A stretch of DNA of 64,000 nt from Chamaelirium japonicum (Eukaryota; Streptophyta; Magnoliopsida; Liliales; Melanthiaceae). The notes beneath the pieces are model-generated. The model was not told the origin of the DNA. It made no database searches and worked only from the letters and a program-made list of their open reading frames with translations. The stretch spans positions 78,187,995 to 78,251,994 of the forward strand of contig OX393555.1 of assembly GCA_947650365.1 (NCBI GenBank). Reading direction: 5' to 3'. The position numbers and the translations under genes are program-made. Below, in pieces: positions 23,398-56,234 of the stretch; position 1 is the first letter of the stretch, and the number at the start of each line of letters is the position of its first letter.

Positions 23398-23435
23398 TAT
23401 GGGTGCAAATTTTGGCAGAAGTCTACCAACTATCG

Positions 23436-23690
23436 CGGGACCCACCGGCCCTGCTTGGTGGGCCCACGAGGACTACCGTAGGACCCACCGGCCCTGCCTG
23501 GTGGGCCCACGAAGACTCCAGCGGGACCCACCGGCCATGCTTGGTGGGCCCACGAGGACTACCGCAGGACCCACCGGCCCTGCCTGGTGGGCCCACTTAG
23601 ACTCCAGCGGGACCCACTGGCCCTTCCTGTGGAATCCTCCGGAGACAGCAGCGGGACCCACCAGCCCTGCCTGGGGGATCCCCGGATACG
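23436..23690. repeat. 43-bp minisatellite inside the A LTR
   Basis: About five units begin GGGACCCACCGGCCCTGC and include the perfect 10-bp palindrome GTGGGCCCAC. Equivalent runs occur in every LTR of the family (about 35310-35550, 43160-43390, 52060-52250, 56830-57040 and 59800-60020) with differing copy number. They create spurious open frames rich in Gly, Pro and Trp. Confidence 0.9.
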
Positions 23691-23735
23691 ACAGCAGAAA
23701 CCACCGTTTACCCCGGAATCCCTCTTCGAGAATTC

Positions 23736-23743
23736 TATAAATA
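23736..23743 (+). promoter_or_regulatory. LTR TATA box (TATAAATA)
   Basis: TATAAATA is conserved in all six LTRs of this family: 35608-35615, 43101-43108 (minus), 51990-51997 (minus), 56746-56753 (minus) and 60074-60081. Its position past the middle of the LTR fits a U3 promoter with the transcription start shortly downstream. Confidence 0.85.
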
Positions 23744-24109
23744 GCAGACCCTTCGAATGTAAATGGATCCAAAATTGAGTTTCAGAAACTAGAGCTCTGG
23801 AATTTTCAGCTTCCCATCTTTCAATCCTCCTCGATCTTCTTCTTGTCTTTAGAGAGGTCGAAGAAACTTCAGTGACACTCGGCCTGTCGAGGTCACTTCA
23901 AGCAAGTGTTAGTGAATTCGGGTTGCTCCCTATAGCACGGAGACATAGGCTTCGGCTGAACTCTGAGATCACCTCTCGTGTCAAACTCTCTCTGTTTGCA
24001 TATTGAAAACAGTAACTCCAATCAGCAGATCGAACAACGATCTTCGACTCGAACTTCAATTGACTGGTGCGGCGAAGTCTTCGGGTCGGCACGAAGATTT
24101 TCCCCCACA

Positions 24110-24132
24110 GTTTGGCGCCGTCTGTGGGATCG
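24110..24132 (+). other. Primer-binding site of element A
   Basis: Directly after the LTR comes TTTGGCGCCGTCTGTGGGA. Starting at TGG, the first nine bases TGGCGCCGT match the complement of the 3' end of plant tRNA-Asp as I recall it, and the rest match only partly. The same site follows the LTRs of B, C and E, and a close variant follows that of D. Confidence 0.8.
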
Positions 24133-24168
24133 AGCAAGAAGTCTAGTTTGCCCTACAACAAGTTTTAC

Positions 24169-24226
24169 ATCGGTTGAGCAGACAACCGATCAAACTTCGT
24201 AGCCCCTTCGATTGAGCAGACAACCG
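24169..24226 (+). other. Paired leader stem-loops of element A
   Basis: The first hairpin (24169-24190) has 8-bp arms ATCGGTTG and CAACCGAT around loop AGCAGA. A second, weaker one at 24209-24226 has the same loop. Equivalent pairs sit between primer-binding site and gag in B and E, and one lies in C. Retroelement leaders often carry packaging or dimerisation signals here; that role is inference. Confidence 0.75.
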
Positions 24227-24269
24227 TTAGGATACCGGCACTCTCGTTGCACCCTTCGCTCTCTACTAA

Positions 24270-27200
24270 ATGGCGAGAATGAAGCATCAGGGTCAACCAG
24301 AAGGAAGTAACACTCAACAAGCTCATCCTGAGACTCATTCAATGAGTCAAAGGCTTAATTTCGGACAGCCCCTTGCTGTCTCGGAAATAGGGGTTCGCTC
24401 AGGAAGTGGGATATCAGTCGATCGACCGATCGCCCAACATGCACGACAGTCAATTAGGCAAACTGCCCCCACTCCTGCTGAAGACCCGCCATCTACTTAT
24501 CAAATTTCTACAATCGACTTTCAACTACTTCAGTTGGTAAAACAGAATGCCGCACTCACTGCTGAAAGAAATGCTCTAAAAAAGGCAGCCTCTGAGGCAG
24601 GTATTGCTCTTCCCATCCCCTCAACCAACGAGAGGGTCGATCTGCCGCGACAATCAATCCACTCTGAGCAACGGAGGTCAATGGGCACTGATGCCCCTGA
24701 GAGGATTCATCGCGACCCAACTCCCTCTACTGCCCCATGGAAGTAGAGTGTTTGGGATCGCATCGACGATGAGTCGTCCCAATCCTCTTCCGGTCGCAAC
24801 TGTGGCAGGAGGGCGCCTTCAAAGCTCGACATATCAAGAAGACACCAGATAAAAGGGGATCCCTCAAAGAGTAGAATTTCTCCATCCATTCTGCTTCAAC
24901 ATGGACTCGGATCGGACCTTCGTCAATGACTCTAACCTTCAAATACTCAAAAGCCCGAACAAGACCTCACGATCTTGCCTCACGATCTACATCCTAGTCG
25001 AGGGCATGGTCGTAGGGACTGATATTCCTCTGCCGGACCACTCCATCGGAGTCTGTTCGAATCGACATTTCCAAGGGGATGGAGAACTCCCACTCTTCCC
25101 AAATTCAATTGCATCAAAGGAGATCCAACTCTCCATATACTCGCCTTCAAGCAAGCCTTGACGCCACACAAAGAAGAGAACAACGTGCTCTGCCGCACCT
25201 TCGCCGGGAGCCTCGACGAGCCATCCCTCGATTGGTACCACAATCTCCGAGCTGGGTCCATCACCTAGTTCAGCGTCTTAGCCCATCTCTTCATGCAGCA
25301 TTATCAATTAAACTTGAAGCTTGAGAAGAAGCTCGACTCCCTCTACCGGTTTAGGATGGGCGCCGATGAGAGTCTCCGTAGCTTCACAAGGAGATTCCGC
25401 AATGAGCACGCCGCCCTCTCCGGAAGGCATCTGGATGATGAAGCGATCATGTTGGCTTTCCAGAATGCACTCCGCTTCAACCTGCACATCTAAAACGATT
25501 TCATTCTCAATCCTCCTCCTTCCCTGGGTTCAATGTTTGATCGAATCCAAAGGGAAATTGAGGTTGAGGATGATCAAGTAGCTCGAAAGGGGCGAGAGAC
25601 AAAGCGAAGGCCTGCTGAAAAAGAAGCTCCTAAATACGCTGCCAAAGCTCACAACGCAGAGGCAACAGCTCTCCCTGCAAACAAGCTGTCAAGGAATGAT
25701 GGACGCCGATCTCCTCCGAAGAAGACCACTTTCACCAAGTGGAATCTACCGCTCGAGCAAATCCTCGACCGCATTCAACAAGAGGAATTCCTTCGAAGGC
25801 CCAATCCTCTGCAGCCTGACACCAAGGTCACTGCAAACAAAATGGTTTACTGTGACTTTCACCGAAGTCACGGTCATTCCACCGATCGTTGCTATCGACT
25901 GAGATATCACCTCGATGATCTTCTACGCGAAGGCCACCTACAAGAGTTCATCAAGAACGGACAAGATCAACGCCAAACCTCTGCAAAGGGGAAAGAGGCT
26001 TGCTGGGTTCATCAAATCTCTTCCAGCCGACCACCTCTCACCGTGAATGCCAACATCTTTGGCATTCACGGGACATTGCACAATCAAGCACTGACGGGGA
26101 AGGAAGTCGATCGGCAAATTCGTCGTATCTTTCATGTTCGCTGTGCAGCAAACAAGGAGGACACCTGGATCGAGAAACATATCAAGGGTTTAGCTTGGCC
26201 TTCCATCGTTTTCAATGACTCTGATCTTCAAGGAGTTCATACTCCCCATCGAGACCCTCTAGTCTTGAAACTCAACATCGACGGAAGCACTGTCAATCGC
26301 ATCCTCATCGATACCGGAAGTTCGAACGACATAATGTTCTCAGACTGCTTCAAACATCTGGGACATAAATATTCGAGCCTTGACGTCGTCCGGATGGTTA
26401 TCACGGGCTTCAACGGCGAACAAAGTATATCAGTGGGTGAATCAAGATTCACCCGCGACCTCAGCCAAGAGACTCGAGTCTCGGTGAGATTTGCTATCGT
26501 CGAAGGAACGTCCAGCTACAACGCCATTCTCGGGCGACCATTCCTCCACCAGATTAATGCCATCTCCTCTTCTTATCATCAACTCCTCAAGTTTGCAAAG
26601 GGAGAAGGCATTGTCTACATACGAGGCGATCAATAAGCCGGGCGATCTTGTGAAGCTGCTGCGGCGAAAACAGATCGCAAAATCAACATTGCTCCTCCAA
26701 AGCGACCACGAGATAAAGTTGGTCCCTCTTCGAGATAGCAATCAAAGGAGAATCCGCTGACAGAGCCCCCACTGATCGAGTGAGAGGCCTCACCTTCAAT
26801 CAAGGAAATCATTCCAATCAATATCGACAGTGGAGATCTCCCTCAACAAACATTCATCGGTACCGGTCTTAGCGACGTGGAAGCACGAGACATGGTATCC
26901 TTCCTTCAGTCCAACATCGACGTCTTCGCCTGGTGCTTTGAAGACATGCCTGGGATCAATCCAGATAACGCGTGCCATCGACTAGCAATCAAAAAAGAAA
27001 TGAAACCTGTCAAGCAAAAGCCACGCACAATTCGACCAGAACTACAAGTTGCAGTTCAAGAGGAGATCAGTAAGCTACTCGCAGCAGGCTTCATTCGTGA
27101 AGTAGAGTACCCTACTTGGATCTCCAATATAGTTGCTGTCCCTAAAAAGAATGGGAAGGTCAGAGTGTGCATCGACTTCACCAACCTCAACAAAGCTTGT

Positions 27201-30152
27201 CCCAAAGATCCATTCCCCATGCCAAGGATAGATAGGCTCGTCGATGCCACCGCTGGCCATGAACTCTTATCTTTCATTGATGGATATTCTGGGTACAATC
27301 AAATTCCGCTTCATCCGGATGATCAAGAGAAGACTTGCTTTGTGACTAGCTGAGGTCTCTACTACTACAACGTAATGCCCTTCGGCCTCAAAAACGCCAG
27401 TTCTACTTATCAATGGTTGGTCACCAAGATGTTCGTAGATCAAATTGGATGCAACGTCGAAGTCTACATCGACGATCTCCTCACCAAAAGCTCCATTCGA
27501 GGGGGTCATCTATCCAATCTGGCGGAAACCTTCCAAATCCTCCGAAAATACCGCATGAAGCTCCATCCAGCTAAGTATGCTTTCGGAGTCCAATCGGGCA
27601 AATTCCTGGGTCATCTTGTGACCAGAAGGGGCATCGAAGCTAATACCAATCAAATTCGAGCTGTTCTGGATATGCCATCACCCACCAATCGGAAGGAAGT
27701 GCAACGTCTCACTGGGAGATTAGCTGCCCTCAATCGATTCATCTCAAAGTCTTTCGACAAGTGCAAGCCGCTCTTCGACAAACTACGAAAGGCGGATACC
27801 TCTGGGTGGAGTCCAATTTGCGAGCAAGCCTTTCAAGACGTCAAAAGATATTTAGTGCGAGCCCCCATCCTGACGGCTCCACTTCCAAAAGAGAATCTAT
27901 GGATCTATCTCACCGTCACCGATCAAGCAATCAGCGAGGTCCTGGTCAGCAAAAGAGAAAGCGTCGAACATCCAGTCTACTACATCAGCCATAATCTTCT
28001 CTCGGCTGAGACTCGCTACTCAAAAACTGAGAAGGTCATACTGGCCTTACTCACCGCCTCGCGACGTCTCCAACCCTATTTTGTCTCCCACCAGATCAAA
28101 GTCATCTCAGAACACCCACTCAAAGATATCATCGACAAGGCGGGTGGAGCAGGTCGAATGACCAAATGGGTAATCGAGATGAGTGCTCTAGGAATCTAAT
28201 TCGAATCTCGCACCTCAATCAAAGGGCAAGCAATTACTGATTTTTTAGCTGACTTCCCAGTTAAAGATCCAATAACTTGGGATGAAGACGTTGACATGCG
28301 ACTTGAAGATGAAGACAAACCTTCATTCAATACTGCTGCCAAAATCAATCTAAGCCTTGAGGCTCCTGCCATAACTCCAACTCCATGGAAGTTTTATATT
28401 GATGGAGCTTCAAGTGCGATCGGTTCGGGAACTGGGATAGTCTTGGTATCCCCCGAACTTGATCACCTTCAGAAGGCCACTCTCATCGGATTCAATGCCA
28501 CCAACAACGAAGCCGAATACGAAGTGCTCATTTTCGGGCTCGAAATGGCTGAATCCCTAGAGGTGGATCGAATCATCATCTACAGCGACTCCCAGCTAAT
28601 CATAATGCAAATCAATAGGGAGTACACAGCACGAGAAGAAAGAATGCAGAATTACTTGGCCCTAGTGTGACATCTTCAACAACATTTTACTAGCACCAAA
28701 TTCATTCAAATCCCAAGGGCAGAAAATCGAGAAGCAGATGCTCTAGCCAATGCTGCTTCGGTTCTTGGAGATTCGCTTGGAGGAAGACAAATACAAATCG
28801 ATTACCAAGAAGCACCCAAGACCACCCTCGAACAACAGATCGTCACCATTACAGAGAGATCTGGGGGTGGAGAACAATTGGCCTCGAACCTTACCACCAC
28901 ATATGAGCTCAATGATTGGAGACAGCCAATCTTCGACTTATTCAAACATGACAAAGTGCCCAAAGATCCAAATCAAGCTTGAAGACTTCACAGAAAGCTT
29001 CCATGCTATAAATTTCAAAGAGAAGATCTATATTTCAAATCGCACAATGGGATGTTACTCAAGTGTATAGGCCCCTTACAAGCAAGGGAGATTTTAATCA
29101 ATATCCATTCTGGATCCTATGGGAACCATTCTGGTGGACGTTCTCTTGAAGCCAAGATGAAGTTACAAGGTTACTACTGGCCAACAATGGCAAGGAATGC
29201 TCACCAAGTGGTTCAAAGATGCGAGCCCTGCCAACGACATGCTCGGGCTATCCATCTCCCAGCAGATGAGCTCCATCAACTAACAAGTCCGTGGCCTTTT
29301 CATCAATGCGGGTTGGACTTCTTAGGTCCCTTCCCACCAACTCCAAGCAAAAAGAAGTATCTGCTGCTGGCTACAGATTACTTCACTAAGTGGGTTAAAG
29401 CAGTGCCACTCTTTCGAGAGACTGACGACGAAGTCATCAAGTTCATCAAACATAACATCTTCTCGAGGTTTGGCACACCTCAGGTACTTGTTGCTGACAA
29501 TGGAGCTCAATTCGACTCCGACAAGGTTCGTGAGTTCTGCCTCAACAACGGGATCAAACTTTTTTACTCAACTCCAAGGTATCCTCAATGCAATGGCCAG
29601 GCCGAAGCTTCCAATAGAGCAATTCTTGGTATACTCAAGAAAAAACTCAATGACAAGAAAGGATTGTGGGAACAAGTCCTACCTGAAGTTCTGTGGGGCT
29701 ATCGAACCACTCCGAGAAGATCAACTGGGTTCTCACCCTTTCGCCTGATATACGGGTCAGAAGCAGTGCTCCCAACAGAGAACATATCGAGTACTTTGAA
29801 GACCAGAGCAGTCGAAGAAGGCATTAATGAGGAGCTTCGCGTCAATGATCTAGATTTTTCTGAAGAACTATAAGACCAAGCAACCTTTCGTGTGGCCAAG
29901 TACCAACAGAATATCAAACGACCCTACGATCAGAAAGTCAACAAGAGACAGTTCCCAATTGGCAGTCTAGTCCTCAGGGTAGTCTTCTACAACACGAGAG
30001 AGCATAGTAGTGGAAAACTAGCTCCCAACTAGGAAGGACCCTATATCGTTGAATCAGTAGGAGGCAAAGGGTCTTATCGGCTAATTTCACCAGAAGGAGA
30101 TAGATTACCACGGGCTTGGAATGCAAGACATCTCAAATTGTTCTATCTATGA
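24270..30152 (+). pseudogene. gag-pol region of element A (broken)
   Basis: The polyprotein region of a Tat-lineage element. In order: the gag core (retrotransposon-gag type); a CHHC zinc knuckle YCDFHRSHGHSTDRC at 25851-25892; an aspartic protease with the DTG triad at 26310-26318; a reverse transcriptase from about 26900 with the YIDD active site at 27465-27476; RNase H to about 28200; a second, archaeal-type RNase H at about 28386-28670 with YIDGASS, NEAEYE and YSDSQL around its acidic residues; and an integrase at about 29050-29900 with an HHCC finger and the conserved Asp of VADNGAQF. The start was chosen because MAR-KHQGQPEGSN recurs at the gag start of B and E. The region is broken, of order eight or more times, so no product is expected. 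Confidence 0.93.
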
Positions 30153-30239
30153 TGTAAATTCCATGATGAATAAAGATCTCTTTCAAGTGTTCAAATGTCT
30201 AGCTTTTCAATTCAAGTCCTGAAGTAGTTTCAAATTATC

Positions 30240-30590
30240 TACATTCAAATTACCAGGTCGTTTAACAAGTTTGGGTGCTTGAGTTACGACTCTACCCCTT
30301 ACAGGCAGATGTTAAACGGTTTCGGGTTGTAATACAAAACAACCTTCAAGTCACTAGGTCAATTTAACAGGTTTGGGAGCTTGTGTTGCAGCACTACCCC
30401 TTACTTACAAATGTTAAATGACCTTCAATTTCAATATCGCCTAACAGGTTTGGGTGCTTGAGTTGCGACTCAACCCCTTGCATACAAGTGTTAAACGATT
30501 TTAAGTTGTGATACAACACAACCTTAAATTTTCAAGTTATTTAACTAGTCTGGGTGATCGAGTTGCGACTCGACCCCTTACATTCAAGTA
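30240..30590. repeat. Irregular 77-102-bp repeats after pol of A
   Basis: Four copies of a motif close to CAGGTTTGGGTGCTTGAGTT start at 30266, 30368, 30445 and 30545. Each is followed by GCGACTC-ACCCCTT-like sequence and a stretch with GTTAAA. This untranslated spacer separates pol from the antisense gene. Confidence 0.8.
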
Positions 30591-31337
30591 TTTATACACA
30601 TTCAAACATTCCAATACCATCCAGAATACAACATTCAAAGATATCCAACATAAAAGACATACAGTTTCTAACACCAAAAAGATATCTTTATTACCAAAAA
30701 TTTCTAAGTACAGGAAGTGAGCTTCTATATGAGAAGAGTTTACAGGTACAACAACAAAGAAAGAGATAGCGTACATCAAGGTTTGGCCAGACTTGGAGCA
30801 CGCGACCTCTCTCGTTCGGATCCACCCCGAGCCTTGCCCGATGTAGACGCCTTTGAAGATTGGATGCTGCTAGCATGAACCCTGAGTGCCTCCACTGCCT
30901 TCTCTGCCGTCTCCCTGAAGCTCTCGCACTCTGCGCGTGTGTGCTCCAGCTCCTTCGTTAAAGCTTCTTCTTTGGCAGCTTTAGCAGCAAGAGCAGCTTC
31001 CCTGGCATCAAGTTGGCTCTTTAATTTCCTCAGCTCTACAGATCGGTCGTGAGCTAGCCAGAGTCTCTATTCTGAAGAATCTCTTCTTCAAGTCTTCGAG
31101 CTCGTAACCCCGAGCTTCATAGTTATTCAGCCATCTCTTGCTCTCGAGCCTTTCCTTGCGAAGGTCCTCGATCTTGGCCTTCAGGGCCTCTTTCTTGGAA
31201 GTCAAAACTTCCCTCAGCTTCGCCTTCTCCTCGTTCGCAGCTGCTAATTCGGCCGTCAAGCGAGAGACCTCAGACGAGGCTCCCCGCTCTCCGGCCATCT
31301 TGAAGAGCTTGCTAGCGAACTTCAGGATCGCTGAGTT

Positions 31338-31412
31338 CTGCAAGTAAACGAGAAGTGTTAGAAATATTTCTGAAGATACAATTCAAGAATCAAGTCAAGC
31401 TGATGCACTTAC
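31338..31412 (-). other. Intron 2 of the antisense gene in A
   Basis: 75 bp from GTAAGTGC to TTGCAG, with a pyrimidine-rich 3' end, at phase 0. The B copy is at 47475-47549, also 75 bp. The exon between introns 1 and 2 is 134 bp here and 137 bp in B, a difference that keeps the frame. Confidence 0.82.
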
Positions 31413-31546
31413 CACTACTTCAAGCCTGTCGTAGGCTTCATCCAGAGTAACATCCGGAAGGTTGCAGAGCTTCCGGATTACACTCGTTGGGTGGTTGATA
31501 TCAACCTCACCCAAATCCTTGAGTAGAGCCTTGCCAGCAGGAGTAT

Positions 31547-31634
31547 CTGCGATCCAGGCAAACGTTTGAAGAGTTAGAATATTTTTGAACATCAAAGATA
31601 ATGTAACCGAGAAGAGAAGTTAGCAAGAGAGTAC
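31547..31634 (-). other. Intron 1 of the antisense gene in A
   Basis: 88 bp from GT after GCCACAG to CAG before ATACTCC, read on the minus strand. It lies at phase 1. The copy in B (47239-47337, 99 bp) occupies the same place and phase, while its sequence has drifted more than the flanking exons. Confidence 0.8.
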
Positions 31635-33712
31635 CTGTGGCTTCAACTCGAGGGGCTTTGCCCTTTCCCCGCTCGGAGCTCTTACCCCCGGGGGTCGACC
31701 TCTCCTTGAGGGAGGTTGTCTCTGGCGGAGGTTGGGGAGTCCCAGCATCCACGCGGCTTCCTCCCTCCATGTGAATCGAAGAAGGAACACCTCGAGGAGT
31801 GATCTCCCCTTCCTCTTGTTGCCCGCCAGGCTATTCAAGCCTGGCCATCAGGGCGGCCGTCTCCTCAGCCACCTGTGCAGCCGGTCGACGAGCAGAGGGA
31901 GTAGGTTATTCAACCTCTATCCCACCGCTCGCCGAAGCACCCTCGATTCGAAGGGGGCTTGGAGGTATCTGGGCGAGGGGTGTGGGGTTGCTTGCAACCC
32001 CATCACTCCCCAAGAATCTGATCCGAATTCGTATTGGACGTTTCAGCTCCTCAAAGTGATACGTGGGTTGCACCCTCGGGCCATCACCCACGACATCCAT
32101 CACGTCCTCCATGCGATGAGCCTTAGCCTCGTCGATGGGGATGGGCTGCAAATCCTCTTCGTCACCACCAGTGGGGGTGGGAGGAATTTCTTCCTCACCA
32201 CCCCCTTTTCCTTCATCACCAGCAGTGGGGGTGGGAGGAATTTCTTCCTCACCACCCCCTTTCACTTCATCACCCCCGGTAGGTGCAGGAGGAATCTTGT
32301 CACCCCCACCGTCACCTTCGTCTCCTCCGTCATCGTCGTCGTCGTCGTCGTCATCATCATCGTCGTCATCATCTCCGTCTTCATTTTCGTCATCTTCACC
32401 TTCCTTCTCCTTCTCTTCTTCTTCTTCTTCTTCTTCCTTCTTCTCCTCCTCAACAAGGACCCTCCTCTTCTTCACCTGACCCCTACGGGTCACCACCAAC
32501 TTCTCCTCAGTGGGACGACGCCTTGCTCCATAGGCCTTCTTCTCGGCCCGGATTCTTCTAACAATCTTGGCCGATTGAGGATCCTCCTCATAATCAGAGT
32601 ACAAGACTTCGTTGTCTTCGTATCGGACCTGTACTCGGTGGAGGAGATTGGCGTTGCCGTACCTGACCGGGCAGTTCGAAAACTGCTTCCATGATCGAGT
32701 GCCGCACATTAACTCCAGGAACAGATTATTGATGGCGCCGAAGGCCAGGCAAAGACACCTCCCACGCAGTACATCTTTATCTCTTTGTGCACATCGTTCG
32801 GGGGGGCCTCGGGCACTGAGAGAGGAGTCCATGCACCGGAAACCAAAATCGGCCAATCAGTATAGAGCTTGTCAGAAGGGACGGTTTCGACGATCGGGCG
32901 CAAAGCAGATACGCCAGTCAAGTTGAAGAATGAGCTATCCTTCCTTGAAGCCCACTTATATTGGTAGAAGAAATAGCCCAACTCTATCCGTGCTTCCTCG
33001 CCCTCAGGAATGCTGGAGTAGCAAGCCTTCAGATCCTCTTTGAAGTCGGATTCTACGCGGCAGAAAGCGTAGATGATCCTCCACGCGTTCCCGGTAAGTT
33101 GTCCGGGGCAAAGGCCTGAAGTGTTCAGAAGCCTCACTGCGAACGGTGGTAGTGGAAGGCGCAGTCCGCAATTCAACTGGCCTATGGTGACTACTGTCCC
33201 TATCACCTGCTCCTTACTTGCCATCGATGTGAAGATAGTTCGCTTGTCAATTCCAAAAGCAGACTGAACTCCCGGGAGCGACGGTCGGGTCTTCCCCTCT
33301 GTGAAGTAGGCCAAAAGCTTCTACCACTTTGCCCTTTTCACATCTGTAAGCTTCCCACCGATATTATACTCATAAGCAGGTTCCTCCGTCAGCGACATCA
33401 GAGGACCCAGTACAAAATTCACCTTGGGGATATGCTCTGGCCTTGATGGTGCAGAAGCAAACCCCACTCCCTGATGCCTCTTGCTGAGAATGCCAAGTTC
33501 AGCCTTGCCTTTGCCCCGACCTTTCTGAATGGGTGACATTTCAACCCTCTCCTTCCCCTTCCTCTTCGAAGGCACGATGTTGATCTTCTTCGAGCTACCG
33601 GAAGAAGCCATTTCAATCGATCGAGAGATTGCAAAGAACAGAAAGTTGGGAGCAAAGAGTCTGGAGTTTGAAAAATTCTGGAAGCGCGAGGCAAAAATGA
33701 AACCCGGTGAGG

Positions 33713-33760
33713 CTTATATACCAAGAGAAAATTAGCGCGCAGATCGAGAGGACACGTGTC
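33713..33760 (-). promoter_or_regulatory. Putative promoter of the antisense gene in A
   Basis: On the minus strand a perfect 10-bp palindrome GACACGTGTC (33751-33760), with the plant G-box core CACGTG, is followed about 30 bp downstream by TATATAAG (33713-33720). The start codon lies about 100 bp further. The same order and spacing occur in B. Function as a promoter is inference. Confidence 0.7.
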
Positions 33761-33959
33761 ATCATCGAATCAAATCCTGTGTTTTTGAAAGAATACGTGG
33801 CATCAATCCGTAGCAAGCGCAAAACCAGGCGAACCGTCGGGACCAGACGAAGCGTCGAACCGCCGGTCCAAGCGAACCGCCGGTCCAACTGGACCGCCGG
33901 TTCAGATGGACCACCACCGATCCAGATGGACCACCGATTCAAATAGAAGGATCTACTTC

Positions 33960-35160
33960 AAGTTGCCATTCAAAGACTTTAACAGAGGATCGTGCAGAAA
34001 ATAGGCTCTTCTGCCGAATCAACCTCGACCGGTTGAATTTAACCGATCAGTCAACCTTAACCGATCGGTCGATTTTCTACTGGATCGGACAAAATACTTA
34101 GTGTTTTGGCCGATCCCGTCAACCCTGACCGGTTGAATTTAATCGATCGGTCAAACTTGACCGATCGGTCAAATTCAACCGATTAGTCTATTTTCTACTG
34201 GATCGGGCAAAATACTTGGTGTTTTGGCCGATCCTGTCAACCTTGACCGGTTGAATTTAACTGCTCAGTCAACCTTGACTGATCGGTCAAGATCAACCTA
34301 TCGGTCGATTTTCTACTGAATCGGGCAAAATACTTGGTGTTTTGGCCGATCCCGTCAACCTCGACCGGTTGAATTTAACCGATCGGTCAACCTTGATCGA
34401 TCGGTCAAAATCAACCGATCGGTCGATTTTCTACTGGATCGGGCAAAATACTTGGTGTTTTGGTCGATCCCGTCAACCTCGATCGGTTGAATTTAACTGA
34501 TCGGTCAACCTTGACCGATCGGTCAAAATCAACCGATCAGTCGATTTTCTACTAGATCGGGCAAAAAACTTGGCTTTTGGCCCGATCCCTTCAACCTCGA
34601 CCGGTTGAATCTAATTGATCGGTCAAACTTGACTGATCGGTCAAATTCAATCGATCGGTCGATTTTCTACTGGATCGGGCAAAAAACTTGGCTTTTTGCC
34701 CGATCCCTTCAACCTCAACCGGTTCAATTTAACCGATCGGTCAAACTTGACCGATCGGTTAAATTCAACCGATCGGTTGATTTTCTACTAGATCGGGCAA
34801 AAGACTTGGTCTTTTGACCGATCCCTTCAACCTCGACCGGTTGAATTTAACCGATTGGTCAAATTCAACCGATCGGTCGATTTTCTACTGAATCGGGCAA
34901 AAGACTTGGTCTTTTGGCCGATTCCTTCAACCCCGACTGGTTGAATTTAACCGATCAGTCAAAATTTGACCGATCGGTTAAGTTCAACCGATCGGTCGAA
35001 TTTCTATTGGATCGGTCGAAAAACGGTGTTCTTTGACCGATCACTTCGAACCCGACCGGTTGAACTTAGCCGATCGGTCAACTTTGATCGATCGGTCAAG
35101 TTTGATCGATCGGACGAAATTAACCGATCGGTCAAAACTTTGACCGATCAGTCCTCTTGA
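33960..35160. repeat. ~119-bp GACCGATCGGTC-rich array in A
   Basis: Nine to ten units, traced by GATTTTCTACTGGATCGGGC-type motifs near 34070, 34190, 34308, 34427, 34543, 34661, 34780, 34879 and 34998. Each unit holds two or three copies of the 12-bp palindrome GACCGATCGGTC or a variant. The array fills the gap between the antisense gene's promoter and the polypurine tract. Confidence 0.92.
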
Positions 35161-35250
35161 TGCTGACACTCGACAAAACTCCTTTGTATTTGTGACAGGG
35201 GATCGTTAGCTTTGCACCAAGAATCCAAGCCAGCCAAGGTGGCCTCTTAG

Positions 35251-35269
35251 CTAACTTGGAGGGGGTAAC
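35251..35269 (+). other. Polypurine tract of element A
   Basis: CTTGGAGGGGGTAAC runs directly into the 3' LTR start TGTGGGTGC. The same sequence, reversed, borders the 3' LTR of B. Confidence 0.88.
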
Positions 35270-35981
35270 TGTGGGTGCAAATTTTGGCAGGATTCTACCA
35301 ACTACCGCGGGACCCACCGGCCCTGCTTGGTGGGCCCACAAGGACTACCGCAGGACCCACCGGCCCTACCTGGTGGGCCCACGAAGACTCCAGCGGGACC
35401 CACCGGCCCTGGTTGGTGGGCCCACAAGGACTACCGCAGGACCCACCGGCCCTGCCTGGTGGACCCACTTAGACTCCAGCGGGACCCACCGGCCCTTCCT
35501 GTGGAATCCTCCGGAGACAACAGCGGGACCCACCAGCCCTGCCTGGGGGATCCCCGGATACGACAGCAGAAACCGCCATTTACCCCGGAATCCCTCTTCG
35601 AGAATTCTATAAATAGTAGACCGTTCGAATGTAAATGGATCCAAAACTGAGTTTCAGAAACCAGAGCTCTGGAATTTTCAGCTTCCCATCTTTCAATCCT
35701 CCTCGATCTTCTTCTTGTCTTTAGAGAGGTCGAAGAAACTTCAGTGACACTCGACCTGTCGAGGTCACTTCAAGCAAGTGTTTGTGAATTCCAGTTGCTC
35801 CCTATAGCACGGAGACGTTGGCTTTGGCTGAACTCCGAGATCACCTCTCATGTCAAACTCTCTCTGTTTGTATATTGAAAATAGTAACTCCAATCTACAG
35901 ATCGAACAACGATCTTCGACTCGAACTTCAATTGACTGGTGCGACGAAGTCTTCGGGTCGGCACGAAGATTTTCCCCCACA
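35270..35981 (+). repeat. 3' LTR of element A
   Basis: 712 bp, aligned without length change to 23398-24109. It is followed by target duplication GGCAT, after which the interrupted D sequence resumes. TATA box at 35608-35615. Confidence 0.95.
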
Positions 35982-35986
35982 GGCAT

Positions 35987-42706: not shown

Positions 42707-43419
42707 TGTGGGGGAAAATCTTCGTGCCGACCCGAAGACTTCGCTGCACCAGTCAATTGAGGTTCGAGTCGAAGATCGTTGTTCGATCTGTTGATTGGAG
42801 TTGCCATTCTCAATACACAAACAGAGAGAGATGCAATCAGAGAGTTGACACGAGAGGTGATCTCGGATTTCAGTCTAAGCCTACATCTCCGTGCTATAGG
42901 GAGCAACCCGAATTCACTAACTCATTTCTCGAAGTGATCTCGACAAACCGAGTATCACTGAAGCCTCTCCGATCTCTTCAAAGACAAGAAGAAGATCAAG
43001 AAGAGGTGAAGGATGGGAAGGTAGAAAATTCCAGAGCTCTGGTTTCTGAAATCAGATCTCAGAACTGAGAATTGGATCCTTTTACCTTCGAAGGGTCTAC
43101 TATTTATAGAATTTCCTGGGAGGAATTCCGGGGTAAATGGCGGTTTCTGCTGTCGTATCTGGGGATCCTCCGGATAAGGCTGGTGGGCCCCGCTGCCGTC
43201 TCCTGGGGGATTCCACAGGCTCCTAGGCCCACCAGGCAGGGCCGGTGGGTCCAGCTGTAGTTTTCGGGGGCCCACCAGGCAGGGCCGGTGGGTCCCGCTG
43301 TAGTCTTCGGCGGCCCACCAGGCAGGGCCGGTGGGTCCAGCTGTAGTCTTTGGGGGCCCACTAGACAGGGTCGTTGGGTCCCGCTATTTGCAGGCTCCTT
43401 GTCAAAATTTGCACCCACG
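42707..43419 (-). repeat. 3' LTR of element B
   Basis: 713 bp, running on the plus strand from TGTGGGGGAAAATC to TTTGCACCCAC plus one base. TATA box at 43101-43108 (minus). It is bordered on the right by the polypurine tract (GTTACCCCCTCC on the plus strand). Confidence 0.94.
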
Positions 43420-43437
43420 GTTACCCCCTCCAAGTTA
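43420..43437 (-). other. Polypurine tract of element B
   Basis: On the minus strand TTGGAGGGGGTAAC ends at the 3' LTR, as in element A. Confidence 0.87.
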
Positions 43438-43529
43438 GCTAAGAGGCCACCTTGGCTGGCTTGGATCCTTGGTGCAAAGCTAACGACCCCCTGTCACAAA
43501 TGCAAAGGAGTTTGTCGAGTGTCAGAGTC

Positions 43530-44810
43530 AAAAGGACTGATCGGTCAAAGTTGACCGATCGGTCAATTTCGACCGATCGGTCGAACTTGATCGATCGGTT
43601 AAGTTCAACTGGTCGAGGTTGAAGGAATCGACCAAAAGACAGTCTTTTGCCCGATTCAGTAGAAAATCAACCGATCGGTTGAACTTGACCGATCGGTCAA
43701 GGTTGATCGATCGGTTAAATTCAACCGGTCGAGGTTGAAGGGATCGGCCAAAAGACAGTCTTTTGCCTGATTCAGTGGAAAATCAACTGATCGGTTGAAC
43801 TTGACCGATCGATCAAGGTTGACCGATCGGTTAAATTCAACCGGTCGAGGTTGAAAGGATTGGTCAAAAGATCAAGTCTTTTGCCCGATCTAGTAGAAAA
43901 TCGACCGATCGGTTGAACTTGACCGATCGGTCATGGTTGACCGATCAGTTAAATTCAACCGGTTGAGGTTGAAGGGATCGGTCAAAAGATCAAGTCTTTT
44001 GCCCGATCCAGTAGAAAATTGATCGATCGATTGAACTTGACCGATCGGTTAAATTCAACCGGTCGAGGTTGAAGGGATCGATCAAAAGATCAAGTTTTTT
44101 GCCCGATCCAGTAGAAAATCGACCGATCGGTTGAACTCGACCGATCGGTCAAGGTTGACCGATCGGTTAAATTCAACCGGTTGAGGATGAAGGGATCGGC
44201 CAAAAGATCAAGTCTTTCGCCCGATCCAGTAAAAAATTAACCGATCGGTTGAACTTGACCGATTGGTCAAGGTTGGCCGATCGGTTAATTTTAACTGGTC
44301 GAGGTTGAATGGATCAGCCAAAAGATCAAGTCTTTTGCCTGATCCAGAAGAAAATCGACCGATCGGTTAAATTTGACCGATCGGTCAAGGTTGACCGATC
44401 GGTTAAATTTAACCGATCGGTCAAGGTTGACCGATCGGTTAAATTCAACCGGTCGAGGTTGAAGGGATCGGCCAAAAGATTAAGTCTTTTGCCCGATCCA
44501 AACTTGACCGATCGGTCAAGGTTGACCGATCGATTAAATTCAACCGGTCGAGGTTGAAGGGATCGGTCAAACGATCAAGTCTTTTGCTCGATCCAGCAGA
44601 AAATCGACCAATCGGTTGAACTTGACCGATCGGTCAAGGTTGACCGACCAGTTAAATTCAACCGGTCGAGGTTGAAGGGATCGATCAAAAAATCAAGTTT
44701 TTTGCTCAATCCAGTAGAAAATCGACCGATCGGTTTAACTTGACCGATCGGTCAAGGTTGACCGATCGGTTAAATTCAACCGGTCGAGGTTGATTAGGCA
44801 AAAGAGCCTG
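43530..44810. repeat. ~119-bp GACCGATCGGTC-rich array in B
   Basis: About a dozen units, the reverse complement of the array in A (33960-35160). Each contains GACCGATCGGTC-type palindromes and a CAGTAGAAAATC motif. The copy number differs from A, so the array expands and contracts between copies of the element. Confidence 0.9.
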
Positions 44811-45081
44811 TTTTTTGCCCGATCCTTTGGTAAACTATCCGATCGTCTGCCTGTTGAAAGGGTAAAGTCTTCGAACGGCAATTTGAAGTACACTCTTCTG
44901 CTTGAATCGGTGGTCCATCTGGATCAGGGAGTCTTCTAAACCGGCGGTCTTGTTGGACCGATAGTTCGCTTGGACTGGCGGGTCGACGCTTCGTCTGGTC
45001 CCGACGGTTCGCCTGGTTTTGTACTTGCTACGGATTGATGCCACGTGTCCTTTGTAAAAACACGGGATTTGATTTGGTGAT

Positions 45082-45128
45082 GACACGTGTCTTCTTGATC
45101 TGTGCGCCAGTTTTCTCTGGGTATATTA
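45082..45128 (+). promoter_or_regulatory. Putative promoter of the antisense gene in B
   Basis: The perfect palindrome GACACGTGTC (45082-45091) is followed about 30 bp later by a TATA-like TATATTA (45122-45128). The start codon is at 45232. The arrangement mirrors 33713-33760 in element A. Confidence 0.68.
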
Positions 45129-47238
45129 GCCTCTCCGGGTTTCATTTTTGCCTTGCGCTTCCAGAATTTTTCGAAGTCCAGAACTCTTTGCTCCCGATTT
45201 TCTGTTCTTCGCAATCTCTCGATCGGTTGAAATGGCTTCTTCCGGTAGCTCGAAGAAGATTAACATCGTTCCCTCGAAGAGGAAGGGGAAGGAGAGGGCT
45301 CAAGTCTCGCCCATTCAGCAGAAAGGCAGAGGCAAAGGCAGAGGTGAACTCGGGGAGTTGGGCAAGAGGCACCAGGGTGTCGGGTTTGCATCAGCACCTT
45401 CGAAGCCAGAGTGGATTCCGAAGGCTAGCTTTGTGCTGGGTCCTTTGATGTCGCTGACGGAGGAACCTGCATATGTGTATAACACCGGTGGCAAATTCAT
45501 CGTTGTGAAGAGGGCGAAGTGGCATAAGCTGCTTGCTTGCTTCATAGAGGGGAAGGTCCGTCCATCTCTTCCTGGAATTCAGTCCGCCTTTGGCATCGAC
45601 AAGCGGACGGTCTTCACAAATTTTGCCAGCAAGGAGCAAGTAATGGGGACTGTAGTCACCATAGGCCAGCTGAATTGCGGACTGCACCTCCCACTGCTAC
45701 CCTTCGCCGCGAGGTTGCTGAATACCGCAGATCTTTGTGCCGGGCAGATTTCCGGGAACGCGTGGAGGATCATCAACGCCTTCTGCCGCGTAGAATCCGA
45801 CTTCCAAGAGGAGCTGAGGACTTGCTACTCCAGCATTCCTGAGGGCGAGGAAGCAAGGATAGAGTTGGGCTACTTCTTCTACCACTATAAGTGGGCTTCA
45901 AGGAAGGATAGCCCATTCTACAACATGACGGGTGTTTCTGCCCTGCGCCCGATCGTCGACACCATCGCCTCTGACAAACTCTACACTGACTGGCCGATCT
46001 CGGTTTTCGGTGCATGGACTCCTCTTTCGGTGCCCGAGACTCCCAGGAATCAGGTACACAAAGAGGTCAAAATGTACTGCACGGGAGGAGCTTTTGCTTG
46101 GACGTCCGATCGGGTTGGGTCCCTGGACAATCTTTTTTTGGAGCTGACGTGCGGCACACGTTCGTGGAAGCAGTTTTCGAACTGCCCTGTTCATCATGGC
46201 AATGCCAACCTCCTCCACCGACTGCAGGTCCGGTACGAGGATAATAAGGTCTTGTATTCCGATTATGATGAGGATCCTCAATCGGGCAAGATCGTCAGAA
46301 GAATCCGGGCCGAGAAGAAGGCGTACGGAGCAAGGCATCGTCTGCCAATTGAGGAGAAGCTCGTGATCAATCGCAGGGGCTAGGTGAAGAAGAGGAAGGT
46401 CCTCATCGAGGAGGAGAAGAAGGAAGAAGAACAGGAATAAGAAGAAGAAGAAGAAGAAAAGGAGAAGGAAGGAGAAGATGAAGATGAAGATGATGAAGAT
46501 GGAGGTGATGGCGATGACGACGACGATGACGATGATGACGATGATAATGACGATGACGGAGGAGATGGGGGTGAGGAGATTACTCCTACCCCTACTAGAG
46601 GTGATGAAGGAAAAGGGGGTGGTGAGGAAGAAATTTCTCCCACCCCCACTGGTGGTGATGAAGAAGAAGAGGGTGGTGAGGAAGAAATTCCTCCCACCCC
46701 CACTGGTGGAGAAGAGGATTCGCAGCCCATCCCCATCGATGAGGCTAAGGCTCGTCGAATGGAAGCTGTGATGGACGCCGTGGGTGACGGCCAGAAGGTA
46801 CAGCCCACGTACCACTTTGAAGAGTTGAAGCACCCCATGCGCATCAGAATCAAGTTCTCGGGGAGTGATGGGGTTGCAAGCAACCCCACGCCCCTCGACC
46901 AAAGACCTCCAAGCCCCCTTCGAATCGAGGGAGCTTCGGCGAGCGGTGGGATGGAGGTTGAACAACCTACTCCCGCCGCTCAACGATCGGCAGCACAGGT
47001 GGCTGAGGAGACAGTCGCCCTGATGGCCAGGCTGGATCAGTCGGCGATCCGCAAGAAGAAGGGGAGATCACTCCTCTTCGAGGTGTCCCTTCCCCCGCAC
47101 ACATGGAGGGAGGGAGCCGCGTCGAGGCTGGGATTCCCCAACCTCCGCCAGAGACCACCCCCGCCAAGGAGAAGTCGACCCCCACGGGTAAGGGCTCCGA
47201 TCGGGGGAAGGGGAAAGCACCTCGAGTTGATGCCACAG

Positions 47239-47337
47239 GTATTCCCTTGCTTATTTCTCTTCTTTGACTGCATTGCTGCCTTCGATGCTTGAAATGTTCT
47301 AACTCCTTGAATGTTCGAACTTATGTGTTGATTGCAG
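47239..47337 (+). other. Intron 1 of the antisense gene in B
   Basis: 99 bp from GTATTCCC after GCCACAG to GATTGCAG before ATACCCCTG, with a T-rich interior, phase 1. It matches the position and phase of 31547-31634 in A. Confidence 0.82.
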
Positions 47338-47474
47338 ATACCCCTGTTGGCCCAGCTCAGAAGATAAGAAACTTGGGTGAGGTTGATATCAACCACCCAG
47401 CGAGTGTGATCCGGAAGCTCTGCAACCTTCCGGATGCTACTTTGGAGGAAGCCTATGACAGGCTTGAAGTGGTG

Positions 47475-47549
47475 GTATGCGCATCAGCTTGACTTGATCT
47501 TTGAATTGTATCTTCGAAAATATTTCTAACTCTTTTTGTTTACTTGCAG
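47475..47549 (+). other. Intron 2 of the antisense gene in B
   Basis: 75 bp from GTATGCGC to TACTTGCAG with a strong pyrimidine tract, phase 0. Same length and position as 31338-31412 in A. Confidence 0.84.
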
Positions 47550-47696
47550 AACTCAGCAGTCCTGAAGTTCGCTAGCAAGCTCTTCAAGAAGGTCGGAGAG
47601 CGGGGAGCTTCGTCTGAGGTCACTCGCTTAACTACCGAATTGGAGGCTGCTAATGAAGAGAAGGCAAAGCTTAGGGAAGTTTTGATTTCCAAGAAG

Positions 47697-48110
47697 GAGG
47701 TAGCTGATCGGGTGCAGATCACCGTTCAGGAGAATTTCACCGATCGGGTGAATTTCACCGATCGTGAGGAGGTCGCCGATCGGGTGCAAATCGTTGATCG
47801 GGTGGAGATAGCCAATCGGGTGCAGATCACTGTTCGGGAGAATTTCACCGATCAGGTGAATTTCACCGATCGGGTAAAAATCACCGATCGGGAAAAGGTC
47901 ACCGATCGGACAAAAACAGCCGGTCGGGAATTGGTTGATCGGTTGGATATCCACGTTTTGGCATCAGATCAGTGGGTTTTTGGCCGATCAAGTGGAGGAC
48001 GAAGGGGAAGAAGGGGATCGAGTTTTGCCGATCGGGCGAATTTGACCGATCGGACAAATTCGACCGATCGGGCAAATTCGACCGATCAGAGGCACCGATC
48101 GGGTGGTTTT
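47697..48110 (+). repeat. In-frame GATCGGG minisatellite in the last exon of B
   Basis: Short units of about 18-21 bp built on ACCGATCGGGTGAATTTC keep one frame open and encode a Thr-Asp-Arg motif repeated about every seven residues (for example FTDRVNFTDR and KITDREKVTDR). A second, looser run with LTDRTNSTDRANSTD follows near 48025-48090. Element A lacks this insert. Confidence 0.8.
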
Positions 48111-48161
48111 GCACTAAATCAGGAGAAAAACCCCTCCTACGATCGATCGCTGAAACCTTGA

Positions 48162-49840
48162 CCGGTTGGTTTTGCCCGATCGGTCGTCGGCAGCCGATCT
48201 GAGGCGGAGTTGCCGTTGTCGGTGAAGGTGGGAGATGTTGCAGCCGGGCTCGATCGGGTGCGCGCTGCCGATCGGAGCTGAGGGCGTAGAGAGCTGCCAC
48301 CAGATCCGCTGTTTCCCCATGTTTTCGTCGTCGTTCCGGAGGGGGAGGAAATGGAGGACTGCTGCTCCAGATCTTGGAAGAACAGGGGAGGCCGATCCCT
48401 TCGATTGGGATCTCGCACTATGGGTCAAGCGTAACCCCCTAAGCTTGGTCAAACAAATCTTGGCCGTAGATGGATGTTTGGTGTTTGCTCCTATTTGAGA
48501 GACACTCTGAATTGGATTTGAACGGCAAGCTGGGTTCCGAGTCAAACTTTGAATTGGATTGAATGGCAAGCTGGGTTACGAGTGGAACTTTGAATTGGAT
48601 TGAATGGCAAGCTGGGTTCCGAGTGGAACTTTCTCTCTCGAGCTCGAGGGGTCTGTCTCGAAGTTGTAATGCCGTGGCACTGCTGGTCTGAGAGTGAGTC
48701 AACGATCGGACTTGAGTGTGGTTTGATGTATCTGTATAGTTTGTCTCTAGGAGTTGCATTCTGGAGTCCGTCATCTATCATCTAGGGTCGAATGCGTAGA
48801 CGAACATGGGCGACTCCTGGCCAAGGGGCGATCCTTCGATTGATCGCCACTAATTGGTAACGGTCACGAGGGTCGACTACTGTTGGAAGATCCGACGACG
48901 AAGGTCGGCCGATAATCCGTAGCATTGAAAGCCATGCCACGGGAGGTCATGTAAGTTAGTTGAGCAGGTCTAATCCTTGTCTTATGGAAGTTTGGATCGA
49001 TCGAATGTCGATGCTACGAATCAAGATAACTCGATCTCTCGCAAGATCAGCTTGTACTCATAAGTCTTCGAATGCACAAGCATGTACGAATGACGTGCGT
49101 ACCTAGTTGTCTTCCACTGGTGGACTAACCAGGGTAGAGAGTGCCTTTAGAAAGCAATTGAATGTTTGCGTGTTTTGAATAGAATTCGAATGTCTTGCTA
49201 CTGAATAGCGCTGAGGCCATGAGCGAAGACTTCGATTGAATGCTGAGACTCAGGTCTCGAACCTTGCTGCCTCGTACTAGGACTAAGTTTGGAATTTGTT
49301 CGAATGTTGCGGTTCATGCCTCAAACTTTGCCTTCGAATGGTTGATGAGTTTTCGCCTTTGTCAATCGGCTTTTGAATCTTAGGACGATCTGCAACGTCG
49401 GAAGATTTTTAAGGGTTGGCCGGAAGATCACGTGACTCCTGGGCGATAGTCGTCTCGTCGTTGATGCTGGCTATGAAAGATTGTAGATTCACCCCCTCAT
49501 CGATGGTGGCCTTCCAGAATGCGTCTTCCCTGAGCATGAGAGTGCGCGATGATCTCTTATATGAGTGTCGAGTGGTAGAAGTCTTCTGTAGTGACTTGGT
49601 AAATTGAGGGATGTTCTGCCTCTGGAGTGATGTTGGCTGAATACTGCAGAACGCGTTGGATCTTGATCTTCATGTCGAGATGTGTTGGGGCTGAGAGCTT
49701 AGGCTTTGCTAGGGTGCCGAGAGCAGGTCTCGGATTTTGGACTTGCTGAGTGTCGAGGTGGTAAAATCTGCCTCGGATTGTCTTCGAACACCAAAGTTGT
49801 ATCTTTGGGCTGGTTTGACTGATGAAGGTTAGAGTTCGAA
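48162..49840. other. Unassigned internal part of B; one 41-bp repeat
   Basis: About 1.7 kb with no gene I can support. GATCGG-rich sequence continues to about 48280. Three copies of a 41-42-bp repeat beginning GAATTGGATTGAATGGCAAG lie at 48509, 48551 and 48592 (to about 48632). The rest, 48780-49840, has no clear repeat. A small frame at 49416-49607 is not recognisable. Confidence 0.6.
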
Positions 49841-49850
49841 GTATTTAGCG

Positions 49851-50720
49851 TAGTGCCTTTGTATCGGTTGAACTTAGGCGAAGCACCGTTTCAGTCAAAC
49901 CTACATTGGGGCACGTAGCTTTATACTATTGAAGGTTGGTCGGTCGTGTCGTAACGCGAACCGATCCAACTGTGGTGAGGCACGGGCGTATGTGTCCTTA
50001 CGTGACAATGGGAGCGTGTGCAACACCAATGATTCGGAGTACTCAACGTAGTGCCTTTGTATCGGTCAACTTAGGCGAAGCACCGTTTCAGTCGTAACTG
50101 TGGGGCACATAGCTTTGTACTGTTGCAGGTTAGTTGGTTGTGTCGCAACGCGAACCGATCTAACTGTGGTGAGGCACAGGCGCATGTGTCCTTACGTGAC
50201 AACGGGAGCGTGTGCAACACTAATGATTCGGAGTACTCAGCGTAGTGCCTTTGTATCGGTCGACTTAGGCGAAGCGCCGTTTCAGTCATACCTGCGGGGC
50301 ACATAGCTTTGTACTATTGCAGGTTAGTCGGTCGTGTCGCAACGCGATCCGATCTAACTGTGGTGAGGCATGGGTGCATGTGTCCTTACGTGACAACGGG
50401 AGCGTGTGCAACACCAATGATTCGGAGTACTCAGCGTAGTGCCTTTGTATCGGTCGACTTAGGCGAAGCGCCATTTCAGTCATACCTGCGGGGCACATAG
50501 CTTTGTACTGTTGCAGGTTAGTCGGTCGTGTCGCGACGCGATCCGATCTAATTGTGGTGAGGCACGGGCGCATGCGTCCTTACGTGACAACGGGAGCGTG
50601 TGCAACACCAATGATTCGGAGTACTCAGCGTAGTGCCTTTGTATCGGTCGACTTAGGCGAAGCGCCGTTTCAGTCGTACCTACGGGGCACATAGCTTTGT
50701 ACTGTTGCAGTTGATCGGCC
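49851..50720. repeat. ~194-bp tandem repeat array in B
   Basis: Units marked TAGTGCCTTTGTATCGGT start at 49851, 50049, 50243, 50438 and 50631, 193-198 bp apart. Each also has GGGGCACATAGCTTTGTACT and a TTACGTGACAA motif. Minus-strand frames here (for example 50286-50573) only follow the repeat. Confidence 0.93.
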
Positions 50721-50849
50721 TCAGAGCATTGATTGGATAAAATTGGAAATGAAATTTGAAGAGGTGGCGACCGTTCCGAACTATGTCTTTGAGTTCCAAG
50801 ACTATCTCCTTGGACTTTGTCGCATATTGATGCGACGAGTGCGCTTCGG

Positions 50850-51130
50850 ACTTTGCATTCGAGTGCCAAGGCTGTCTCTTTGGGCTTCGCCAAATGCCGA
50901 GGCAGCGAGTGTGCCTCGGACTTTGCATTCGAGTGCCAAGGCTGTCTCCGTGGGCTTCGCCGAATGCCGAGGCAGCTAGTGTGCCTCGGACTTTGCATTC
51001 GAGTGCCAAGGCTGTCTCCGTGGGCTTCGCCGAATGCCGAGGCAGCGAGTGTGCCTCGGACTTTGCATTCGAGTGCCAAGGCTGTCTCCTTGGGCTTCGT
51101 CGAATACCAAGGCAGCGAGTGTGCTTCGAA
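50850..51130. repeat. 70-bp tandem repeat array in B
   Basis: About four units with TTCGAGTGCCAAGGCTGTCT and AATGCCGAGGCAGCGAGTG, spaced 70 bp (for example CTTTGCATTC at 50921, 50991 and 51061). They border the gag remnant of the internal LTR unit C. Confidence 0.92.
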
Positions 51131-51199
51131 CTTTGTGTATATGTAACATATACCTTTGCCTATCACCTCGTTCTAGTCTTCAAGTGAGCCCTTTCGTTT

Positions 51200-51406
51200 C
51201 GAACATCACCCCCAATATAGGGATTGGAGGAGAGTCAGAATTGAAAGGCTTAAGATATCGACGGGAGTTGTCGACGATAGATTGTCTAGAAAGAGTGGGT
51301 TCTTGGATTGACGTTGAGCTGCCGACTCATTGAGCGAGTCTCGGGCTGAAACTGATGTCGTTGTGAGTAACTTCCCTCTGGATGATCCTGATAGAGTCTT
51401 CGCCAT
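51200..51406 (-). pseudogene. gag start of internal unit C (remnant)
   Basis: On the minus strand the start codon at 51406 opens a stretch that aligns with the first part of gag in A, B and E: a basic start, then a GQ/GS-rich part, then an ARDSLNES segment where the others have PETRSMSQ. It then departs from gag and runs into the 70-bp repeats. It is a short remnant and I do not expect a product. Its place after a primer-binding site and LTR shows that C was the 5' end of a separate element of this family. Confidence 0.75.
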
Positions 51407-51493
51407 TCAGTGAAAGCGGAGGAAGCAGCCAAATCGCTCGTGTCCAATCGGTTTTCCGCTCAATCGAGGGAGCTGGGAAGTTTGGTTATCTAG

Positions 51494-56194: not shown

Positions 56195-56234
56195 TTAGAG
56201 AGTGAAGGGTGCAACGAGAGTGCCGATGTCCTAA

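Follow-up and report, generated by a model that had tools for sequence, protein, structure and literature searches.

The 64,000-bp stretch of the Chamaelirium japonicum genome analysed here (hereafter the window; C7:78187995-78251994, in a genome of 1.52 Gb, the single genome analysed) contains a Ty3/gypsy long terminal repeat (LTR) retrotransposon, element A, and a second, rearranged element B, each carrying, between its pol and 3' LTR, an extra gene on the opposite strand. Comparison with further genomic copies of this gene led us to conclude that it is very probably a three-exon antisense TRP28 accessory gene of a Retand-like Ty3/gypsy family, which would be spliced by the host and maintained by selection, and whose introns would be kept thanks to their antisense position. 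The exon/intron anatomy is conserved among the copies, the exons are constrained as coding sequence, the gene lies antisense to pol with a TATA box of its own, and both introns are retained in a young insertion.

Exon/intron anatomy across genomic copies

In element A the gene, delimited by alignment to B and to other genome copies, spans 30776..33611 on the minus strand, and this copy is broken. Exon 1 (31635..33611, -) contains an acidic stretch and the TRP28 domain (PF04195, 27.0 bits at 32715-33317 (-), with a cut-off of 26.2). It is followed by a GT-AG intron 1 of 88 bp and phase 1 (31547..31634, -) with a branch-like CTAAC at 31573-31577, a 134-bp exon 2 (31413..31546, -), a GT-AG intron 2 of 75 bp and phase 0 (31338..31412, -) with a branch-like CTAAC at 31357-31361, and a coiled-coil-like exon 3 (30776..31337, -), all of whose Pfam matches were under their cut-offs. 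The TATA box (33714..33720, -) lies 109 nt upstream of the ATG, and an AATAAA was read in the sequence downstream of the gene (30687..30692, -). For copy B, the alignment placed exon 1, which has in-frame stops, at 45232..47238 (+), a 99-bp GT-AG intron 1 at 47239..47337 (+), a 137-bp exon 2 at 47338..47474 (+), a 75-bp GT-AG intron 2 at 47475..47549 (+) and the part of exon 3 homologous to A at 47550..47700 (+).

A preliminary description of the window had proposed that both copies carry two GT-AG introns at the same places and phases, flanking an exon that differs by three bases, and the alignment of A with B bore out both points. It had also set the end of the gene in B at 48161; homology to exon 3 of A stops, however, at about 47700, and the segment from there to 48161 is a tail of GATCGG repeats, so that the ancestral gene did not end at 48161. 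Nor are A and B intact, as had been supposed, since exon 1 has in both of them a length that is a multiple of three, yet the phase of intron 1 is 1, and the reading frame opened by the ATG ends after 96 amino acids (aa) in A and 383 aa in B. Exon 3 of A also stops early, at 109 aa versus 175-189 aa in the 28 of 43 mapped copies that have a late stop. Other copies with long open spliced frames do exist.

The splice sites were compared in an alignment of 41 copies, made up of L009-L038 (the 30 best BLAST matches, the best-matching copies having been fetched first), L040, L041, L043-L050 and copy B. This set is without L039 (gene absent), L042 and L051 (unmapped), the latter being a more distant TRP28 locus whose alignment was too poor for placing introns; L052, L053 and L057 were fetched afterwards, and the 43 mapped copies are L009-L038, L040, L041, L043-L050, L052, L053 and L057. 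Eight loci, seven of them in the 41-copy set, had been chosen from PF04195 matches, mostly for long open frames, and the loci so chosen were about 68-79% identical to A in this region.

The donor of intron 1 was GT in 39 of the 41 copies, GC in one and AT in one, and its acceptor was AG in 40; for intron 2 the donor was GT in 37 and GC in 4, with an AG acceptor in 40. Each splice site was retained in 40-41 of the 41 copies when GC donors were counted, and in 37-40 for GT or AG alone. Nucleotide diversity was 0.00-0.05 at seven of the eight splice bases versus a mean of 0.21 in the intron interior, the eighth base, the T of the intron 2 donor, reaching 0.18 because of the GC donors. CTAA[CT] or CTGAC, which we take to be branch-point-like motifs when they precede an acceptor, occurred within the final 45 nt in 35/41 copies for each intron, and CTAAC was found anywhere in intron 1 in 38/41 and in intron 2 in 34/41. 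Chance GT-AG pairs were ruled out by this comparison. The copies with a GC donor in intron 2 (L010, L011, L040 and L043) look like two close pairs, which may mean that their GC-AG site was inherited and can still be used. A separate observation concerns L042, in which an insertion of several hundred bases lies within intron 1 and the exons round the insert still match.

The two introns also drifted freely in length: the range was 81-101 bp for intron 1 and 72-77 bp for intron 2, covering all classes modulo three, and departures from the commonest length were not divisible by three in 24/26 cases for intron 1 and 17/20 for intron 2, as against 1/17 for exon 2. Exon 2 was open in 40/41 copies, was 134 or 137 bp long in 40/41 and retained the frame in 40/41. 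Reading through intron 2 met a stop or shifted the frame in all 41 copies, and reading through intron 1 led to a stop in 37/41 and to a frame change in 27/41. The preliminary description had named family copies coding or shifted at the proposed splice sites as evidence to look for against the introns; what the copies displayed were retained sites, and introns that run into stops or frame changes.

Signals around the gene and the extent of its open frames were recorded in the same collection. TATA[AT]A[AT] was present at most 170 nt upstream of the ATG in 29/40 copies, 28 of these at 103-113 nt. Of the 28 copies whose stop is late, 15 had AATAAA no more than 200 nt further on; the 10 more diverged loci (L044-L050, L052, L053 and L057) all lacked it. 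In 30 of the 40 copies tested an integrase was located downstream, on the opposite strand, and the 10 without a match were stretches ending close to the gene. Spliced frames of 740-950 aa were found in 9/43 mapped copies: L028 and L035 among the 30 best matches, none of L040, L041 and L043, five of the seven PF04195-chosen loci in the alignment (L044, L045, L046, L048 and L050) and both L052 and L053, which had been chosen in the same way. The frame of L044, L052 and L053 measured 878 aa spliced and 657 aa unspliced; identity to L052 is 98.5% for L044 and about 90% for L053. Most fetched copies were broken, like A and B.

Coding constraint, intron retention and alternative explanations

The ratio of nonsynonymous to synonymous polymorphism (pN/pS) in the predicted spliced frame was 0.44 in the exon 1 tail, 0.33 in exon 2 and 0.25 in the exon 3 head (first 120 bp), and it was 0.85-1.69 in the remaining gene-strand frames. 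The predicted frame held 7 stops in 5,022 exon codons, exon 2 alone just 1 in 1,803, and when the introns were taken as codons, pN/pS was 0.50-1.04 across the six frames, each of which held 27-132 stops in about 960-1,160 codons. The count of substitutions in introns and exons that had been proposed at the outset was run on 820 pairs of copies, which are mutually related, the comparisons not being independent: nonsynonymous divergence (dN) was lower than synonymous divergence (dS) in 99.4% of the pairs, the medians were 0.10 for dN, 0.40 for dS and 0.23 for the introns, the median dN/dS was 0.25, and the median ratio of intron divergence to dS was 0.53. These values are signs of purifying selection on the antisense gene, which looks like a lineage-typical TRP28 accessory gene and not like the passenger it had been called.

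Genomic junctions were searched with patterns allowing few mismatches, against controls. The junctions expected with the intron kept were abundant, with 2,740 matches for the intron 2 donor (at most 2 mismatches; control 14) and 3,354 for the intron 1 acceptor (at most 3 mismatches; control 13). The spliced intron 2 junction had 1 match, with 2 mismatches (control 5), at locus L039, which has no match to the gene. The spliced intron 1 junction had 4 matches (control 0), at L040-L043, all four of which are intron-bearing copies; L042, absent from the alignment, was assigned to them from BLAST matches showing the insert in intron 1. For the young subfamily, the same junction had 1 match, with 3 mismatches (control 4), at locus L059, again without a match to the gene.

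When one young copy was used as query, 40 of 6,446 candidate places were scored, and the 39 others matched over nearly the full length with net length differences of just -7 to +39 bp, so that neither intron is missing in these relatives. Among the 39 scored, 28 were at least 98% identical to the query, and these were spread over 17 contigs (16 and the query's own). One of them, the element at C10:3073035-3086631, has LTRs 99.33% identical over 894 bp (6 differences), TG...CA ends and a target duplication CCTCG, and carries the gene antisense with both introns present. If 1.3e-8 substitutions per site per year are assumed, this element is roughly 0.3 million years old. The introns have been carried along through many rounds of retrotransposition, apparently because the RNA that is copied represents the opposite strand. 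The initial claim that antisense introns survive retrotransposition thus held as regards the orientation relative to pol, the retention of both introns and the lack of a confirmed spliced-out copy, and splicing itself stands as a prediction.

The following course of events would account for these findings. Transcription of the antisense gene would start at a TATA promoter of its own and run towards pol, and the host spliceosome would remove the two short introns, yielding a product of roughly 740-950 aa with a TRP28 region, an acidic stretch and a coiled-coil-like end. The genomic RNA of the element corresponds to the opposite strand; there the splice signals would read CT-AC and be ignored, and reverse transcription would then copy the introns unchanged in every round. 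Selection on the exons would keep the gene working through many element generations. The protein might have a regulatory, DNA-binding role in the element cycle, as suggested by the DNA binding predicted and the nuclear Grande protein reported in the literature.

Several observations weigh against this interpretation. An element-strand frame that has its third positions in common with the gene frame gave a pN/pS of 0.31-0.42, a low value to be expected from those common positions, and it contained 83 stops in 4,898 codons versus the 7 in 5,022 of the predicted frame. Read on in frame, intron 1 (frame 2) had a pN/pS of 0.53 and intron 2 of 1.04, so the ratio alone cannot separate intron 1 from coding sequence; it is set apart by its stops and its free length drift. 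Frame-breaking length departures also occurred in the exon 1 piece (3/5) and the exon 3 piece (1/3), and splice sites were lost in L041 (donor AT), L047 (acceptor CG) and L036 (acceptor AA). A spliced genomic copy would have shown splicing directly, and none was confirmed in the genome-wide pattern searches, which diverged copies could escape because few mismatches were allowed. The nine copies with long frames are a non-random share, as several loci were chosen for open frames, and the spliced frame of the young C10 copy is only 613 aa. PF04195 scored 15.6 bits in copy B, under the cut-off of 26.2, and an AlphaFold model of the N-terminal open reading frame (ORF) of B was uninformative, with a predicted local distance difference test score of 32.

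An arrangement without splicing, in which exon 1, as a TRP28 ORF, and exon 3, as a coiled-coil ORF, form independent antisense genes with the presumed introns as mere spacers, would agree with the 104 antisense ORFs listed in a published survey (Vicient 2025, PMC11963269) and with the fact that exon 1 by itself is open for about 650-720 codons in some copies. It would leave unexplained the constraint on exon 2, a piece of 44-45 codons that lacks a Met in 32/41 copies (Met in 9/41), as well as the low variability of the splice dinucleotides relative to the intron interior, and we regard it as highly improbable. We give slightly less credit still to the idea of a formerly spliced gene that is now dead everywhere, its introns persisting only because nothing removes them: broken frames in A, B and most fetched copies, the young C10 copy included, are what decay would produce, but the median dN/dS between copies and the 878-codon spliced frames of L044, L052 and L053 are not.

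Intron retention could also serve as a regulatory switch, the unspliced antisense RNA acting as double-stranded RNA or as the message for a shorter protein, with the introns themselves functional. The antisense HBZ gene of human T-cell leukaemia virus type 1 (HTLV-1) has both unspliced and spliced forms (PMC6237760), the unspliced 657-aa frame of L044, L052 and L053 could hold TRP28, and intron divergence is about half of dS. This possibility appears unlikely to us, given that intron length and sequence vary freely save for splice-type motifs, and that the lower intron rate can be explained by such motifs together with base composition. Finally, kept introns would be trivial if the copies had spread as DNA, by segmental duplication or unequal exchange. 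The window sits in satellite DNA, where duplication at the DNA level is common; against this stand the LTR pairs and flanking target duplications of A, B and the C10 element and the dispersal of the near-identical copies over 16 contigs besides the query's own. DNA-level duplication is largely refuted by the C10 element, with its LTRs and target duplication, and hardly credible as the source of the family. A spliced accessory gene protected by its antisense position is the explanation that we retain.

Elements A and B and their surroundings

Element A (23398..35981, +) is bounded by LTRs at about 23400-24110 and 35272-35982, 95.5% identical over 711 bp in a pair alignment, and is flanked by a 5-bp target duplication GGCAT. 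The remains of its pol (25533..29873, +) are broken ORF pieces with Pfam matches to protease, reverse transcriptase (RT), RNase H (RH), a second RNase H (28296-28670, +) and integrase (INT; 29052-29873, +), and the order protease-RT-RH-INT between the LTRs, pieced together from separate Pfam matches, is the Ty3/gypsy order. The second RNase H region, between RH and INT, matched RVT_3 with 38.2 bits and RNase_H with 27.9 bits at 28296-28667. For gag, the upstream piece 24270-24743, the sole piece tested, had no Pfam match. A tandem-repeat array detected by Tandem Repeats Finder (34042..35117) lies between the promoter of the antisense gene and the 3' LTR. Element A seems to be nested in a larger repeat-bounded unit located between satellite arrays (19325-39605), whose end repeats, 19325-20511/38150-39324 and 20574-20856/39323-39605, are 93-94% identical; a 204-bp tandem repeat in 8 copies (21261-22877) lies between the outer end repeat and the element.

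Element B (42707..57064, -) has LTRs at about 42706-43418 and 56351-57063, 94.0% identical over 713 bp, and CGATC flanks it on both sides, a motif also present in the surrounding satellite. Its middle part, 47700-52280, has no match to A: past exon 3 come the GATCGG-rich repeat, tandem arrays with periods of 194 bp and 70 bp, and a further LTR-like stretch at 51324-52279. Element B looks recombinant or as if it carried a nested piece. Large arrays of a 23-bp satellite surround the elements (1-19324, 39606-42706 and 57108-59773), with periods of 120 and 143 bp as well. A third related element begins in 59774-64000, with an LTR-like stretch at 59774-60494 and a gag ORF at 60842-62788 whose Retrotrans_gag match is over the cut-off.

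Comparison with known systems

The best identification for the gene is with a conserved accessory gene that is already known, the antisense TRP28 (PF04195) gene of Retand-type elements. A recent survey (Vicient 2025, PMC11963269) reports that plant Retand elements regularly contain antisense genes and that TRP28 is confined to flowering plants; of its 104 antisense ORFs, which form 63 clusters, 57 carry TRP28 and others carry Smc-like or further domains, and about half of the published elements have tandem arrays in the region between pol and the 3' LTR. Our placement follows from the fit of position, tandem array and sizes to that published lineage: in A the TRP28 region, with PF04195 over its cut-off, is likewise on the strand opposite to pol and between pol and the 3' LTR, the array occurs in the same region, this region measures 5.4 kb here versus 2,933-6,566 bp in published Retand elements, and the LTR 711 bp versus 315-1,194 bp (PMC11963269). 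A second RNase H domain, of aRH type, has been reported in the Tat lineage (PMC6317226). PF04195 gave 137 matches in the genome among the 150 scored of 5,979 candidates, and no relatives were confirmed in viral contigs.

Unlike in the gene studied here, with its two introns, the genes of Retand are described as ORFs in the survey, and the word 'intron' has no occurrence in its main text (PMC11963269). Antisense accessory ORFs between pol and the 3' LTR are also known as gene23 of maize Grande, in rice RIRE2 and in Silene Retand, with an own promoter and a nuclear protein reported for Grande (PMC7264820); in the accessible text of this review on the Grande, RIRE2 and Retand ORFs, 'intron' occurs 0 times. 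In the literature searched, including the available parts of PMC11963269, PMC7264820, PMC6317226, PMC12786077 and PMC7730604, we found no report of introns in this gene; an earlier description may exist. A plant retrotransposon with two introns in a conserved accessory gene appears to be new.

We infer from the published list that some of its separate antisense ORFs may be exons of one gene (PMC11963269). A wider proposal, to which we give somewhat less than an even chance, is that the introns are ancestral and lineage-wide in the Retand antisense gene, the TRP28 and Smc-like ORFs of flowering plants being exons of one spliced gene. If they are ancestral, retroelements would have kept a spliced gene, introns included, for very long on the strand that reverse transcription cannot splice; and if the gene is spliced, Retand antisense proteins would so far have been described in pieces, the full product comprising TRP28, the acidic stretch and the coiled-coil-like end.

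Introns inside plant LTR retrotransposons are known from Ogre and EVADE, where they are in sense orientation (PMC6317226, PMC12786077), the EVADE intron giving rise to subgenomic RNAs, whereas those described here are antisense. Since Ogre and EVADE carry sense introns, the preliminary description went too far in stating that these are lost in each cycle; we infer that unspliced RNA serves as template there. Engineered retrotransposition reporters follow the same rule, by which only introns sense to the element RNA are lost, with the opposite arrangement, the intron being placed sense to the element so that loss occurs (PMC12786077). The principle is known, because HBZ of HTLV-1 is already a spliced gene antisense to a retroelement genome, and its RNA is polyadenylated (PMC1459196). 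As in HBZ, the gene of elements A and B is antisense to the genomic RNA and its introns, the splicing of which is predicted, survive reverse transcription; no homology is claimed. It would be a natural case outside deltaretroviruses of a retroelement keeping an intron-bearing gene through reverse transcription. HBZ starts in the 3' LTR and belongs to an exogenous virus (PMC1459196), whereas the present gene, that of a plant retrotransposon, has an internal TATA box and a coding sequence interrupted by two short introns.
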